From Palleronia pelagia (GTDB lineage Bacteria; Pseudomonadota; Alphaproteobacteria; Rhodobacterales; Rhodobacteraceae): a DNA stretch of 64,000 nucleotides. Positions 27,430-33,096 of this stretch are shown here, one piece after another (the first letter of the stretch is position 1; each line of letters opens with the position of its first letter). The DNA lies in the NCBI RefSeq assembly GCF_900110115.1, contig NZ_FOCM01000006.1:62001-126000 (forward strand). The letters are read 5' to 3'. The position numbers were made by a program, and so were the translations under genes. The notes below the pieces were generated by a model. It was not told where the DNA came from and made no database searches. It saw only the letters and a list, made by a program, of their open reading frames with translations.

Positions 27430-27756
27430 CGCGCGCGTGGGAGAGGACGCGGGCTGGACTTTGAGCTGATGACGTTATCGAGCCCGCGTCACCGGTTCCG
27501 GGAAGCCTGTCGGGCCGTTCGCGCAACAAGACACAGATCTTCCCTTCCTTGCGCCGATGGTTGGTCACCCCGGTCTGGCGTGGCGCTGGCCCCGGCCAAC
27601 CAGAACGAACCGGCAGGCCGGGGGTGAAGGCCGCTTATTCGGGCAGATCGGCCAGATCCGGCATGAATGATGCGACAACGGTTGCGACCCGACGAAAGAG
27701 CGCCACAGTCTGAGGCAATGCTCGCCAACGACCCTCCGAGACTCGAAGGAACGCTC
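27430..27756. other. Intergenic stretch between serine hydrolase and Cache-HAMP gene
   Basis: About 327 bp. It begins with a hairpin (27446-27490, listed separately). The remainder has no supported coding frame on either strand; the in-frame extension upstream of the Cache protein (27667-27756) lacks a signal-like N-terminus and is not needed. It probably holds the promoter of the Cache-HAMP gene. Confidence 0.5.
27446..27490 (+). terminator. Inverted repeat after the serine hydrolase (possible terminator)
   Basis: GACGCGGGCT (27446-27455) and AGCCCGCGTC (27481-27490) are perfect 10-bp arms separated by 25 bases, 17 bp after the stop codon. There is no T-run after the second arm, so it may be a rho-dependent end or RNA-stabilising hairpin. 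Confidence 0.45.
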
Positions 27757-28857
27757 ATGGTTTCGCACTCCTCCGCTCCAATAACAGTCACGCTGGCCGC
27801 CGCCATTTACGGCTTCATGGCGCTCGTCTGCAGCGCGCTGGTCGTCTTCTCGGCATGGATCTACCAGTCGCGCGCCGACTCCACGATCGACGCCGAGCTC
27901 GACGGCGCGGTTCGCGTCCGCACCCAGGCGGCTGGTGCGGCCCTGGCGCGGACCATCTACTCGGACTGGCGGGACCTGACGTTCCTCGCTTCCCAATTTT
28001 CAGGCGCGCGCGACCGGCGGCAGGGCATGCTGGAAGGCTTGCGGGGCGATGGCGGGCGGATCTCCTGGATCGGCTACGCGCGTCCGGACGGAATCGTGGC
28101 GCAGGCGACCGGTAGTCTCCTGGTTGGCGAAAGTGTCGCGGAACGGCCGTGGTTCCGGAACGGCCTGCGCGGGCAGTTTGCCTCGGACGTGCACGATGCC
28201 GTTCTGCTGGCGCGGCTGCTTTCCCCTGGTACGGGCGAGGTCCCTCGCTTCGTCGATCTCGCGCTGCCCGTGAGGGACGATACCGGGACTGTAACGGGTA
28301 CTCTGGGGATGCATATCGATGCCGACTGGGTCGAGAACGAGATCGAGGAACTGGCGCAAAGCCTGGGGCTGGAGCTGTATCTGGTCGGCGCGCAGGGCGA
28401 CGTGGTCCTGTCCAGCGCCGATACCGTGCCCGACCCGCAATCGCTCGAGATCCTGCGGACCGCGCGGACCGGCAACACCACCGCGCTGCGCGAGACCTGG
28501 TCCGATGGCGAGACCTATTTCGCCAGCCTCGTGCCGCGGGTCGGATACGCGGATCTGCCCGATTTCGGATGGTCGCTGGTCGGCCGGCTCGACCCGGATC
28601 AATTCCGGCCCGCACTGGATAGCGCGGGTCGCGGTCTCACACTGATCCTCGTGGGCGGGGTGCTTCTGATCATCATCATGACATCGGCCTTCGTGATCGC
28701 CTTCGTGCGGCCCCTGGAAAGGGTTGTCGACGCGGCCGAGCGCATCGCCGAGGGCCAGGATGTCTATCCGCCCGAACCACGCGCCCCGCGCGAAGCGCAG
28801 CGCATCTCGGGCGTTCTGGCGCGGTTGCAGGACGGGCTCAGCGACCGCCGGAACTGA
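27757..28857 (+). CDS. Cache-HAMP transmembrane sensor-like protein without output domain
   Basis: 366 residues from the ATG at 27757 (GAAGGA 7 bases upstream). Transmembrane segment 1 lies at about 11-33. A periplasmic domain of about 255 residues shows Cache signatures (ISWIGYARPDGIVAQATG, ERPWFRNGL, VPRFVDLALPVRDD). Transmembrane segment 2 is at about 293-316, then a HAMP domain (FVRPLERVVDAAERIAEGQD). The protein ends about 15 residues after HAMP, so no kinase, GGDEF, EAL or chemotaxis output domain is present. The stop is clean and lies 20 bp inside the converging glycosyltransferase gene. It may regulate that neighbour by direct contact; this is inference. Confidence 0.85.
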   Translation: MVSHSSAPITVTLAAAIYGFMALVCSALVVFSAWIYQSRADSTIDAELDGAVRVRTQAAGAALARTIYSDWRDLTFLASQFSGARDRRQGMLEGLRGDGGRISWIGYARPDGIVAQATGSLLVGESVAERPWFRNGLRGQFASDVHDAVLLARLLSPGTGEVPRFVDLALPVRDDTGTVTGTLGMHIDADWVENEIEELAQSLGLELYLVGAQGDVVLSSADTVPDPQSLEILRTARTGNTTALRETWSDGETYFASLVPRVGYADLPDFGWSLVGRLDPDQFRPALDSAGRGLTLILVGGVLLIIIMTSAFVIAFVRPLERVVDAAERIAEGQDVYPPEPRAPREAQRISGVLARLQDGLSDRRN

Positions 28858-30829
28858 AACTGAGGCGCCGCGCAAGATCGGCGATCAGGGCCGGACCACG
28901 CACCCGCGCCACACCGGGTGCAAGGTCGTCCTGGGTATAGAAACGCAGCATCAGCGCCTCGTGCTGCTGCTCGTCTGGAGACAGGTGCAGCCGCACGCCG
29001 TCCTCGTACCGGGCAATGACCCGGGCGGGGATTTCTCCTACCCCGTCGATCGCCAAGGTGCCCCGGGTCCCCAGTGGCATCCCCCGCCCGCGCAGGCGCA
29101 CCGTGTCCGCGGTCAAGGAGGTGATCCATGGGCGGCTCTCGGATCCGCCCGTGCGGAAGGTCGCGCGTTCAGGCGCGTCCGCCACGTGGCGCTCGCGCCG
29201 GGGCAGCTCGATACAGGCCAGGATCGTGATCGACAGCACGATCAGATTGTAGAGGGTCCAGAACAGGATCACCCACTTGCCGTCACCCGCATCGGAAAAG
29301 GCGAAGCGGTCGCTGAAGATGCCGACCAGCAGCCCGGCCAGGGTCAGCGCCAGCAGGAAGATGAAGGGCGCCATAAGCCGCCACTGGATGACGATGCGCG
29401 ATCGGTCGCCGCCCTTCGCGGTGACCGAGAACGGGTGCCCTTTCGGCCGCAGCAACCCGGTGAAGGCCGCCCGGCTGATCGCGGCGGCCCCCAAAAGTTG
29501 GCTGACATCCGACAGGACCGGCACGATCATGCCCCGGCTCAGCACGTTCAGCGCCACGATGATCCACAGGAAATACGTGCCGAAATAGCTGATGACGTCG
29601 GGCAGGGCGGCGTCGACAACGGTCACGTTGAAGAACCAGTAAAGCAGCGGGTAGACGATGGCCGCCAGCCGGAAGGGAAACGTGGTTGTCCAGTAGAAGA
29701 CCGAGTCCGCCACGCTCCATCGGTCTCGCAGCCGCAGGCCACTACGGGCGAAGGGCCCCAGCGAGGAACGTGCGATCTGCATCAGTCCAAGGCACCAGCG
29801 GGCGCGCTGGGTCACGTATTCCTTCAGGCCCTCGGGCGCGAGACCCTCGGTCAGCGGCTCGGCGAGGTAGGCCGTCTTCCAGCCCTTCTCCTGCAGCGCG
29901 AGCGTCAGCATGAAATCCTCGGTGACGCTCTCCGTGGGCAAGCCGCCGATCTCCTGCAGGGCCTTCCACCGCACGACCGACGACGTGCCGCAGCAAAAGG
30001 CGATGCCCCAGCCGTCGCGGGCGGGTTGCATGTGGTCGAAGAAGAAGCGCTGCTCGTCCGGATAGGACCGCGTCAGCCCCAGGTTGTGCTGGATCGGATC
30101 GGCATTGAAGAAATGTTGTGGCGTCTGGACCAGGCCCACCTCCGGGTCATGGAACAGCGCCAGGCAGCGCGAGGCGAACCCCAGGTGCGGAACGAAGTCG
30201 GCGTCCAGCACCGCCACGAAGTCGGGCGGCATGTCGCTTTCCGCCAACCGCTCCAGCGCGTGGTTGATGTTGCCCGCCTTCGATCCCTTGTTGTCGGGGC
30301 GCCTCAGGTATTCGACGCCCTGCTTCGCGCAGAAATCGCGCAGCCAGTCGCGTCGCCCGTCGTCCAGCACCATCACCACCTTGTTCGGGTGGCGCAGCGA
30401 CCGCGCGCCCACGATCGTGCGTTCCAGCACGGCAAGCTCTTCGTTGTAGGTCGCGATGAGGATGGCCAGCCGCGGCGGCGTCGCATCGCCCCACCAGCCC
30501 CAATGGGCATCGGCCTCGGCGCGCCGGTCCCTGAACCGCGCCATGATGAGGAACGAGCTCAGCGAACCCGCGAGCACCAGCATTTCCAGCGCGAACAGCG
30601 ACCAGCTGGCGGCCATGTCGACCGTCAGCCCGGCGGGGGCCAGCGTCTCGGTCGCCCGCCACCAGGCATAGCGCAGGGCCAGCACGGCCGAGATCGCCAT
30701 CAGCACGGCGCGGTGCCAGACCCGCGTCGGATCGACGACCGACGGCAGAAGGCAGGCCAGCCCTATGACCAGCAACAGGTGGATGCCGGCCGATCCCAGT
30801 TCGCCGAAATGCGGAAAGAACGGCATCAT
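28838..30829 (-). CDS. BcsA-like family 2 glycosyltransferase (beta-glucan synthase; BgsA-like candidate)
   Basis: 663 residues. Hydrophobic segments near 16-50, 73-97, 382-440, 484-505 and 518-541 surround a cytoplasmic GT-A domain. The processive beta-glycan synthase motifs are complete: DDG (156-158), DAD (209-211), TED (303-305) and QRARW (341-345). The roughly 120-residue cytoplasmic tail (541-663) looks PilZ-like in size but lacks clear RxxxR and D/NxSxxG motifs. It overlaps the HlyD-type gene by 4 bp (ATGA), and there is no bcsB or bcsC. Cellulose or a related glucan is the likely product; the layout is closer to BgsA of Sinorhizobium meliloti. Confidence 0.88.
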   Translation of the reverse strand: MMPFFPHFGELGSAGIHLLLVIGLACLLPSVVDPTRVWHRAVLMAISAVLALRYAWWRATETLAPAGLTVDMAASWSLFALEMLVLAGSLSSFLIMARFRDRRAEADAHWGWWGDATPPRLAILIATYNEELAVLERTIVGARSLRHPNKVVMVLDDGRRDWLRDFCAKQGVEYLRRPDNKGSKAGNINHALERLAESDMPPDFVAVLDADFVPHLGFASRCLALFHDPEVGLVQTPQHFFNADPIQHNLGLTRSYPDEQRFFFDHMQPARDGWGIAFCCGTSSVVRWKALQEIGGLPTESVTEDFMLTLALQEKGWKTAYLAEPLTEGLAPEGLKEYVTQRARWCLGLMQIARSSLGPFARSGLRLRDRWSVADSVFYWTTTFPFRLAAIVYPLLYWFFNVTVVDAALPDVISYFGTYFLWIIVALNVLSRGMIVPVLSDVSQLLGAAAISRAAFTGLLRPKGHPFSVTAKGGDRSRIVIQWRLMAPFIFLLALTLAGLLVGIFSDRFAFSDAGDGKWVILFWTLYNLIVLSITILACIELPRRERHVADAPERATFRTGGSESRPWITSLTADTVRLRGRGMPLGTRGTLAIDGVGEIPARVIARYEDGVRLHLSPDEQQHEALMLRFYTQDDLAPGVARVRGPALIADLARRLSFSSGGR

Positions 30830-31995
30830 CCGCCGAAAAGACCGCGCAGCCCGTCGAGCGGACGGTCCTCGAAGAAGACGCGTCCGGTGCGCCCGACGGG
30901 GCAGCCCAGCTCGGGATCCTGCGACAGTTCCGGCACCAGGAGGGTCACGTCATAGCGTTCCAGGTGCCGCTGGCTGGGGGCCACGGCAAGATGCTCGTAG
31001 ACGGTCGCGGCACCGGAGCCTGCCAGCCGCGTAACGGTCGCATCGAACAGCCGTGTCTCGTTCTCGAAGCGGAAGCGCGCCGCATCCCCCAGGCGCAAGC
31101 CGTTATAGGTGCCCTCGGGCACCGACAGCGAAACGACCAGCGACGCGCAGTCGACGAGACGCAGCAGCGGGTCGCCCCGTTGCACCACGACCCCGTCGGC
31201 CTCCAGAACCTCCCACAGCAGCCCGTCCACGGGGGACGCCAGGTCGCCGCCGGTCAGCGCGTTCACGCGCACCCGCTCGCGGTCGATCCGTTCGGCCACG
31301 GCGGCGACGCGCGCCTCGGCCTCGGCGTGTTCCGCGTCGAGCGCGGCGATGACGGAGTCGAGCTCGGTGGCCCTTTGCGTGGCATTGGGCGAATCGTTGT
31401 AGCCGTCACCAAGGAAGACGCCCGCCTCGGCAGCCCTGAGCTCGATCTCCAGCACCTCGACCCGTTCCCGAGCGTAGTCGAGCGCCAGCGACTCGAGGTT
31501 CGGTTCGGTCGGCAGGCGCCCGCCGTCGCTGTCCAGCGCGTCGCCCAGCCGGCGCGTCTCGGGATCGGTCCCGTCTTCAAGCAGCGCCAGCCGCGCGCGG
31601 GCGTGTTCGAGCCGCGTGCGCAGCTCGTCCAGTCGGTTTTCGCGGAAGGACTCGCCGCGCGCGTCCAGGTCGCCCTGGATGCCGCGCTGTGCCTCGCGCT
31701 GCGCGGCGATACGGGCCCGCGCGGCGCCCTCGAACGCGCGCTCCATCAGAAGGTCGTTCAGCCGTATCCTGTCGACGAGCGGATCAGTGATCGAGGCGAC
31801 GACCTCGCCTTCGTTGACCCGCGCTCCCGGCGGCCGGTCGACCAGCGTCAGCGTGCCCGCGACATCCGAACGGACGGTCACGACGGGGGCGTTCACGAAC
31901 GCGTTGGCGCTGGTCCGCGCCATCTGTTCGCCGACGATCACCCAGAGCGCGAACAGGATCACGACAAGGCCGACGATCAAACGGGTGAATTTCAT
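30826..31995 (-). CDS. HlyD-type membrane fusion/adaptor protein
   Basis: 389 residues from the ATG at 31995. One transmembrane helix (6-25, FTRLIVGLVVILFALWVIVG) anchors it in the inner membrane. A lipoyl-like half (VVTVRSDVAGTL...GARVNEGEVVASI) comes next, then a long coiled coil (about 85-240, with RLEHARARLALLEDG and AALDAEHAEAEARVAAV), the second lipoyl half (GDLASPVDGLLWEV...GVVVQRGDPLLRL) and a beta-barrel part. It likely spans the periplasm and guides the glucan made by the adjacent synthase. It overlaps that gene by 4 bp. This is the expected partner type of BgsA (BgsB). Confidence 0.87.
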   Translation of the reverse strand: MKFTRLIVGLVVILFALWVIVGEQMARTSANAFVNAPVVTVRSDVAGTLTLVDRPPGARVNEGEVVASITDPLVDRIRLNDLLMERAFEGAARARIAAQREAQRGIQGDLDARGESFRENRLDELRTRLEHARARLALLEDGTDPETRRLGDALDSDGGRLPTEPNLESLALDYARERVEVLEIELRAAEAGVFLGDGYNDSPNATQRATELDSVIAALDAEHAEAEARVAAVAERIDRERVRVNALTGGDLASPVDGLLWEVLEADGVVVQRGDPLLRLVDCASLVVSLSVPEGTYNGLRLGDAARFRFENETRLFDATVTRLAGSGAATVYEHLAVAPSQRHLERYDVTLLVPELSQDPELGCPVGRTGRVFFEDRPLDGLRGLFGG

Positions 31996-32039
31996 ATCCT
32001 TAACTCTCCTCTGGGGCGAATCCAGCACATACTGTGCAA

Positions 32040-32054
32040 ATTGCCCTGGGCAAT
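32040..32054. promoter_or_regulatory. 15-bp perfect palindrome in the glucan operon
   Basis: ATTGCCCTGGGCAAT, symmetrical about one central base, lies between the GH8 stop (32083) and the adaptor start (31995). A second small dyad, GCACA-tac-TGTGC, lies at 32025-32037. A one-base loop cannot form a hairpin, so a dimeric repressor or activator site controlling an internal promoter is the more likely reading. Confidence 0.4.
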
Positions 32055-32082
32055 AAACCTTCCTGCGGTTGGTCGATCACGA

Positions 32083-33096
32083 TTATCCGCAATCGTCGCC
32101 TTCTCGCTGCGCCACCAATGCAAGCAGCCATAGCGTCGCCGGGTAGTAAAACCGTTGGGCACCGGCCGCAGGCAGCGGGTCGCAGACCGACAGCGCCTGG
32201 ATCGCGCGATACCCCGCCGCATCGCTTTCGCTGACCACGGTGCCGCCGGGATCGGTCACGACCGCGACATGTCCTGCTGTCGGGGCCCGTGCCAGCGCTG
32301 CTGCCATCACGCCCACGGCCGGATGGTCCCGGCGCCCCGACCAGCACAGGTAAAGCGGGATGCGCAAGGCGTCATAGCCAGAGCGCGCGGCGTGGTTGGC
32401 CGGCGCCCGGAAGCCTTCGGGGGCCACGTCGATCCAGTCCGGTATCGCGCCGCGCGCGGCGAGTTCGGCCAGGACCGTTTCACCATGATCGGCGGCGCGG
32501 ACGAGGTCCGGCAGATCGAAGGCGGCGCCAAGCTCGCGCAGCGCGACGCTCACGAAGTATGACGGGTTGATCGTGATCCTGCCCCGGCCCCCTGCGGCCG
32601 CGTCCGCCTGTGGCAGCAGCAAGCGCTCAGCCGGCGCCCGCGGATCCGGCGCGAGGCATCGTGCCGCGATCGCGTGCGCAACGGCGTCGGCCCGCCCGGC
32701 GAATTCCTGCCAGCCTGAATCGCGCATCGCCCGCAAAAGCGCCCACGCCCGCAGCAGGTCACCATCGGTTGCCGTGACGTTGTCGACCGATCCGGAACCC
32801 GGGTCGAAGCGCCATCCCATGAAAGGGGCATCCGGCCTGACCAGGGTCGCCACGGTCCAAGCCTCGATCTTCGAGAACGCATCGCGGTCACCGAAGGCCT
32901 GGGCCAGCAGCAGACCATAGGCTTGCCCCTCGGAATGGCTGATCTGCTGGTCCCGGTCCATGACGCGGCCGGATGGGTCGAGATATCGCGCTTTCCAGGA
33001 ATGCCAGGCGGACTCGGACGCCGCGGCACGCTTGGCCGCGACGAACGTCCCGGCATGCAGCAGGCCGGCGATCAGCAACTCCCTGCGATTGACCAT
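32083..33096 (-). CDS. Glycoside hydrolase family 8 (endoglucanase, BcsZ-like)
   Basis: 337 residues. The N-terminus VNRRELLIAGLLHAG resembles a twin-arginine or Sec signal, so the enzyme is exported. GH8 motifs are present: SEGQAYG with the proton donor E56, TATDGDLLRAWAL with D111, NPSYF, and YDALRIPLYL. BcsZ-type enzymes trim beta-1,4-glucan during synthesis. It is the first gene of the operon with the adaptor and the glycosyltransferase (87 bp gap). The substrate here would be the operon's own glucan, cellulose or mixed-linkage. Confidence 0.88.
   Translation of the reverse strand: MVNRRELLIAGLLHAGTFVAAKRAAASESAWHSWKARYLDPSGRVMDRDQQISHSEGQAYGLLLAQAFGDRDAFSKIEAWTVATLVRPDAPFMGWRFDPGSGSVDNVTATDGDLLRAWALLRAMRDSGWQEFAGRADAVAHAIAARCLAPDPRAPAERLLLPQADAAAGGRGRITINPSYFVSVALRELGAAFDLPDLVRAADHGETVLAELAARGAIPDWIDVAPEGFRAPANHAARSGYDALRIPLYLCWSGRRDHPAVGVMAAALARAPTAGHVAVVTDPGGTVVSESDAAGYRAIQALSVCDPLPAAGAQRFYYPATLWLLALVAQREGDDCG

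Follow-up and report, generated by a model that had tools for sequence, protein, structure and literature searches.

Processive beta-glucan synthases are a textbook case of c-di-GMP control. In BcsA, the latch is described in a passage of PMC10374906 as a pairing of R580 with E371. Passages of PMC5567048 report that the tail of Sinorhizobium meliloti BgsA (C-BgsA) contains no PilZ motif and binds c-di-GMP with a KD of 0.23 uM, R599 and H615 being needed, and part of PMC6821405 gives the function of its clades 4 and 6 as not known. We compared with these systems a locus of Palleronia pelagia in which a BcsA-related synthase is encoded beside a receptor that has no output domain.

The window (the whole stretch of DNA analysed, 64,000 nucleotides) corresponds to C21:62001-126000 of a 3.85 Mb genome in 25 contigs. 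Its operon lies on the minus strand and encodes a GH8 glycoside hydrolase of 337 aa (P0003, 32083..33096; Pfam Glyco_hydro_8, 120.8 bits), an HlyD-type periplasmic adaptor of 389 aa counted from its ATG (P0002, 30826..31995; Pfam HlyD_3) and a BcsA-related processive GT2 synthase of 663 aa (P0001, 28838..30829; Pfam GT2 and Cellulose_synt). A preliminary description had named these three reading frames, the presence of their catalytic motifs, the overlap of genes and an operon lacking BcsB and BcsC, all of which we recovered: the HlyD and GT2 frames share 4 nt (30826-30829), neither bcsB nor bcsC lies within the operon, and the motifs of the synthase (D156/D157, DAD 209-211, TED 303-305, QRARW 341-345, FSVTAK 467-472) and of the hydrolase (HSEGQ, ATDGD, YDALR) are intact. 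The gap between the end of the GH8 gene and the likely HlyD ATG (31995) is about 90 nt, with a GTG start at 32028 also open, and the N terminus of P0003 looks Tat-like by eye. Public records annotate proteins of these types singly, as 'cellulose synthase catalytic subunit', 'glycosyltransferase', 'HlyD family' or 'cache domain-containing protein'.

Relatives of P0001 were sampled as the best 80 of at least 567 loci, and among these the relatives in Rhodobacterales and Rhizobiaceae are 60–74% identical to it; several relatives carry the annotation 'cellulose synthase catalytic subunit', including one (62.8% identity) encoded on pAt, a plasmid of Agrobacterium fabrum C58. A tree was built from 107 GT2 cores with the C-terminal domain excluded (left out were L069 and L071, whose GT2 frames are truncated, L125, L128, L131 and the GT2 of contig C6). 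P0001 fell in a clade of 71 members (support 86.6/98), next to a sister clade of 14 (98.3/100); a BgsA clade (95.9/99) took in S. meliloti BgsA and a second GT2 of the window genome, and BcsA formed a separate clade. A mixture-model tree of 31 rows returned the same groups, with 93/90 for the BgsA grouping of the second GT2. AU tests rejected the placement of P0001 with BcsA (p = 5.6e-5) and with the second, BgsA-like GT2 (p = 1.7e-7); for the P0001 clade with rhizobial BgsA alone the test gave p = 0.004, a rejection, and p = 0.17 with the CrdS-like row included. P0001 scores 380.1 bits against TIGR03030 (BcsA), under the equivalog cut-off of 699.1. This score and the first AU test rule out membership of BcsA, and the separate clade in both trees rules out membership of BgsA; by these sequence comparisons, P0001 is neither a BcsA nor, on these trees, a BgsA. 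The preliminary reading of a BgsA/BgsB-like operon therefore survives in part: the HlyD-GT2 layout is that of BgsBA and not of BcsA, and the 663-aa protein, placed on the GT2 tree that had been proposed for it, occupies its own clade outside both families.

The 71 clade loci also bear on gene content. All 71 have an HlyD gene no more than 6 kb from the GT2, and 27 have a GH8 gene in that range, upstream or downstream of the synthase. The GH8, which the preliminary description had taken for the distinguishing addition, is thus an optional accessory, and its variable position and presence in only 27 of 71 loci rule it out as a defining feature. Besides the P. pelagia window, the GH8-bearing loci belong to Rhodobacterales and one Caenispirillum. 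P0003 reached 113.4 bits against the BcsZ model NF008305, below the equivalog cut-off of 299, as did the GH8 of a second operon of the same genome (135.9 bits), on contig C10; both proteins are GH8 by Pfam.

That second operon (L004) is a bcsA-bcsB-GH8 operon whose BcsA passes TIGR03030 (861.7 versus 699.1 bits). At its end the operon overlaps the gene of a protein with weak matches to TPR, and a BCSC_C search of the whole genome gave no match. The genome has bcsB matches on C10 and C6 only. The preliminary description had set against its own reading the case of a bcsB elsewhere in the genome with P0001 inside BcsA: bcsB does occur elsewhere, but the C10 copy sits with its own BcsA, and P0001 is not one. 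The region C6:400500-418500 (L005) encodes a GT2 with an MshEN domain, a BcsB-like protein, a 469-aa unknown protein, a response regulator and a dCache-PAS histidine kinase. The second HlyD-GT2 pair (C21:136080-139543) lies outside the window, on the same contig and some 41 kb away from the operon, and groups with rhizobial BgsA; in this BgsA-like region (L012:10080-14801 = C21:136080-140801) the GT2 is 723 aa long and is followed by an MscS-type channel gene.

A conserved fourth gene, which does not appear in the preliminary description, lies on the plus strand at 27667..28857, convergent with the GT2 gene, and the 3' ends of the two overlap by 20 nt. Pfam, AF2 and Foldseek indicate a receptor consisting of TM1, a periplasmic dCache domain, TM2 and HAMP. 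The dCache_1 match scores 52.6 bits (Pfam cut-off 45), and the HAMP match (residues 346-391; 28702..28839, plus strand), the main cytoplasmic part, is weak at 23.0 bits, just under the 25-bit cut-off; the stop codon follows 5 residues past it. The AF2 model (pLDDT 92.7) shows TM1, a double Cache domain, TM2 and HAMP helices, the predicted dCache fold being near the sensor domains of the chemoreceptors and kinases TlpA, PctA and KinD (Foldseek). None of 67 GT2-linked receptors has an output domain, and there is no space for a usual one, since every protein ends 0-57 residues beyond the matched region. The HAMP domain and tail are the best conserved part of the receptor (mean 0.54 versus 0.46 for the Cache part), as expected if they contact a partner.

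These 67 receptors come from profiles that we built and iterated: 67 of the 71 clade loci have a receptor no more than 6 kb from the GT2, and the same scan gave none in the 14 sister loci (L089 ends right after its GT2, its downstream side not being in view), the 3 BgsA-clade loci or the 2 BcsA loci; three further BgsA loci carry no annotated cache gene. L069 and L071, with their truncated GT2 frames, both have a receptor near the GT2. The receptor lies downstream on the opposite strand in 42 loci, downstream on the same strand in 14, upstream on the same strand in 6 and upstream on the opposite strand in 5, four arrangements which imply that it moved and was kept. Single-sequence queries against the 70 other clade loci recovered the window receptor in 66, HlyD in 70 and GH8 in 25. 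Of the flanking genes used as controls, the four on the upstream side (FAD oxidase, CIA30, nitroreductase, BioY) recurred in 0 of 70 and one downstream gene in 1 of 70 (a sixth query, a serine hydrolase, is probably a wrong-frame piece and was not counted), which rules out shared ancestry of the whole region as the source of the adjacency. Four clade loci have no receptor next to the GT2. For L038, the genome encodes one at another place (E 3.4e-88); L082, whose GT2 is truncated, lies close to the end of its contig, in a genome that has only longer Cache proteins; L021 gave none in a search that covered its plasmid; and L072 has none at E ≤ 1e-10.

Two unselected samples of genomes were also examined. 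Across 121 genomes of the order, P0001 matched at E ≤ 1e-50 in 15, ten of them at ≥60% identity and the others at ≤40%. The receptor (E ≤ 1e-20) was found in the same ten genomes as the ≥60% GT2, once each, with no more than about 1 kb between the two matches, and these genomes span 8 of the 59 genera sampled. Across 385 genomes of the class, the receptor profile matched at E ≤ 1e-30 in 23 genomes (up to five candidates scored per genome) and P0001 at E ≤ 1e-110 in 7 (up to three candidates scored per genome). Among these 7, the receptor is adjacent in the window genome and in G477 (51% identity) and in none of the remaining five (37-44% identity). In G477 (L155, G477:C1:898000-903000), the receptor lies in two frames and the GT2 has one internal stop, as if the pair were decaying together. 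Synthases of this type occur in Alphaproteobacteria from marine and plant-associated settings, in several cases on plasmids.

We then asked what has become of the c-di-GMP gate in the synthase. Pfam PilZ gave no match in P0001 at E up to 0.1. AF2 nonetheless predicts the last 128 residues (pLDDT 82.4) to be a six to seven-strand beta-barrel with a helix, the best structural matches of which are PilZ domains, including that of BcsA (Foldseek best E 1.3e-3, probability 1.00; VIA Z 11.7 to 9fnn, E. coli BcsA, and 8.8 to 4p00). The preliminary statement that there was no canonical PilZ is thus right for the sequence motifs and has to be amended for the fold, which is predicted for the last ~120 residues of the GT2. 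The domain (residues ~546-640; 28910..29194, minus strand) has neither RxxxR nor (D/N)x(S/A)xxG at the aligned positions. Both RxxxR and DxSxxG are kept in 14 of 14 sister-clade sequences and in 3 of 3 from Azospirillum, which branches off first within the P0001 clade; the remaining members group together at 92.8/99 (107-core tree) and 94/90 (mixture model). Motifs were counted in the 65 remaining clade members whose tail is complete, leaving out the short-tailed L050, L074 and L082. Position 546, the equivalent of BcsA R580, is E in P0001 and in 54 of the 65, D in 6 and N in 3; R550 is retained in 11 of 65, and a complete in-place DxSxxG in one sequence only (L078). E333, the equivalent of BcsA E371, is invariant among the members counted. 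Other tail residues are newly fixed (W568 in 64/65, P553 in 61/65, P638 in 64/65), which argues for re-use of the domain, so that its change looks like remodelling rather than decay.

The trees give an order of branching, from intact PilZ motifs and no receptor, through intact motifs with a receptor, to lost motifs with a receptor. Receptor gain and motif loss each look like a single event, and their association therefore amounts to one historical case.

The ancestor of the receptor was probably a dCache-HAMP sensor with an output domain, and probably a diguanylate cyclase whose GGDEF domain has since been lost. In a receptor tree of 71 rows (L155 left out), all 56 aligned GT2-linked receptors form one branch (100/98), and the earliest split within it is that of Azospirillum, in agreement with the GT2 tree; of the 62 loci listed for each of the alignments A2 and A3, 56 and 59 respectively are included. 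Fifteen related proteins from outside these loci, in 14 of 21 other genomes, end in GGDEF (10), another long output region (4) or none (1), and a Pfam scan of ten relatives found GGDEF in 8 and histidine kinase in 2 (L145, L153). The GGDEF assignment of L142 and of the second L150 protein is by motif only, and the tree labels every long non-GGDEF tail HK, a label with a Pfam basis for L145 and L153 and not for L143 and L154. In the class sample, 23 of 27 receptor-profile matches lie in open frames of 555-1200 aa. The tree leaves both GGDEF and kinase proteins as possible sisters of the GT2-linked receptors. One output-less relative (L156, G306:C1:3354000-3371000) lies about 3 kb from an MshEN-type GT2, with a response regulator-GGDEF gene between them, so that a Cache protein and a polysaccharide synthase may have become paired here a second time, independently.

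A receptor that has a sensing part but no signalling part, and whose gene almost always lies beside that of a synthase, suggests direct switching of the synthase. We therefore favour, tentatively and as a reading that comes close to being probable, a c-di-GMP-gated beta-glucan synthase rewired to direct control by a receptor. The computation shows which genes are present and occur together, that the receptor has no output domain, that the motifs are gone and in what order the lineages branched; from this we infer contact between the two proteins, sensing of a ligand, independence from c-di-GMP and the nature of the product. Under this reading, an inner-membrane processive synthase fed by a UDP-sugar, most likely UDP-glucose, would pass its chain to the HlyD adaptor for export as a putative linear beta-glucan, which GH8 may trim in some Rhodobacterales. 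The gate through which c-di-GMP acted in the ancestor, made up of PilZ domain and arginine latch, would have been dismantled, and a dedicated inner-membrane receptor would have taken over control: its periplasmic dCache domain would bind an external ligand, and its terminal HAMP would relay the change of shape directly to the gating loop and the PilZ domain in its remodelled form. A fuller version, possible and somewhat less likely, is a complete bypass of the second messenger, in which a sensor diguanylate cyclase lost GGDEF, the synthase lost its latch together with the pocket for c-di-GMP, and a ligand outside the cell gates synthesis through direct contact of receptor and synthase. Azospirillum, with its receptor and intact PilZ motifs, would then be a living intermediate.

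Missing motifs do not prove lost binding, since BgsA of S. meliloti has no PilZ motifs and yet binds c-di-GMP. The synthase may accordingly still be activated by c-di-GMP through non-canonical residues, as BgsA is, with the Cache protein an accessory sensor that has another job. This is the leading alternative, though we consider it rather unlikely: in an alignment that is weak in this region, R599 falls at the edge of a BgsA loop that P0001 lacks and H615 is opposite an arginine, and such activation gives no account of why the receptor marks the P0001 clade. The precedent may itself be closer to PilZ than its description as a novel c-di-GMP-binding domain suggests, because the BgsA-clade relative L121 keeps both PilZ motifs and the C-BgsA tail may thus be a diverged PilZ domain.

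The receptor could also act on another protein. Cache-HAMP proteins usually work as dimers and pass their signal on by a cytoplasmic output, and relatives of the receptor carry GGDEF or kinase domains; an output-less Cache-HAMP protein might accordingly form heterodimers with a cyclase, kinase or chemoreceptor encoded separately, and be linked to the synthase by regulon membership only. Kinase, EAL or GGDEF genes do occur near some of six annotated GT2 loci, but none is common to all of these neighbourhoods, and we regard this explanation as unlikely. An ordinary BgsBA- or curdlan-type beta-glucan operon with an acquired GH8 and nothing new in its control is very improbable, for although the HlyD-GT2 layout is common to BgsBA and a crdASC-like locus, and the AU test left BgsA and the curdlan-synthase-like L119 (a single long-branch row) both as candidates for nearest kin (p = 0.19), the P0001 clade is separate and supported, and a receptor accompanies it in 67 of 71 loci but was found in none of the 3 BgsA-clade and 2 BcsA loci scanned.

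In the open-access literature, as covered by titles and the openings of abstracts, we found no account tying an output-less Cache receptor to such a synthase. If direct receptor control holds, a PilZ fold that was kept, a messenger pocket that was lost and a dedicated receptor that was gained would illustrate how a pathway can come to dispense with its second messenger, and the locus offers a testable, possibly ligand-gated polysaccharide synthase.

Compared with known systems, the locus resembles BgsBA, the mixed-linkage (1,3;1,4)-beta-glucan synthase of S. meliloti, in having an HlyD adaptor gene followed by an overlapping gene for a BcsA-related GT2, without BcsB or BcsC. P0001 and BgsA both lack canonical PilZ motifs and share the motif QTPQHFFN; however, the two are 36% identical and belong to different clades, the BgsA-clade loci scanned contain neither receptor nor GH8 (0/3), and BgsA is activated by c-di-GMP, in contrast to the control proposed for P0001. 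The curdlan locus crdASC likewise has an HlyD-like gene and then a GT2, which joins the P0001 clade (96.9/99 in the 107-core tree, 89/83 under the mixture model), but this CrdS-like GT2 sits on a long branch at 37% identity, and a third gene of 460 aa without a Pfam match replaces the Cache receptor. We take the locus concerned, L140 of an Agrobacterium genome, to be crdASC from its three-gene layout, from the gene names and the CrdS length of 654 aa, and from one crdA-start primer that matched with 2 of 18 mismatches; 5 of 8 published primers, including both for crdS, had no match within 5 mismatches. With BcsA-BcsB the locus shares catalytic motifs, the gating loop FxVTxK, a predicted C-terminal PilZ fold and a GH8 in the operon, whereas it has no BcsB, and P0001 lacks the 19-residue stretch that follows the first DD motif in BcsA and has lost the PilZ motifs and the latch arginine. 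Finally, the receptor has the same sensor and HAMP region as alphaproteobacterial dCache-HAMP-GGDEF diguanylate cyclases but, unlike them, it lacks an output domain, GGDEF or other, and is linked to a synthase gene.
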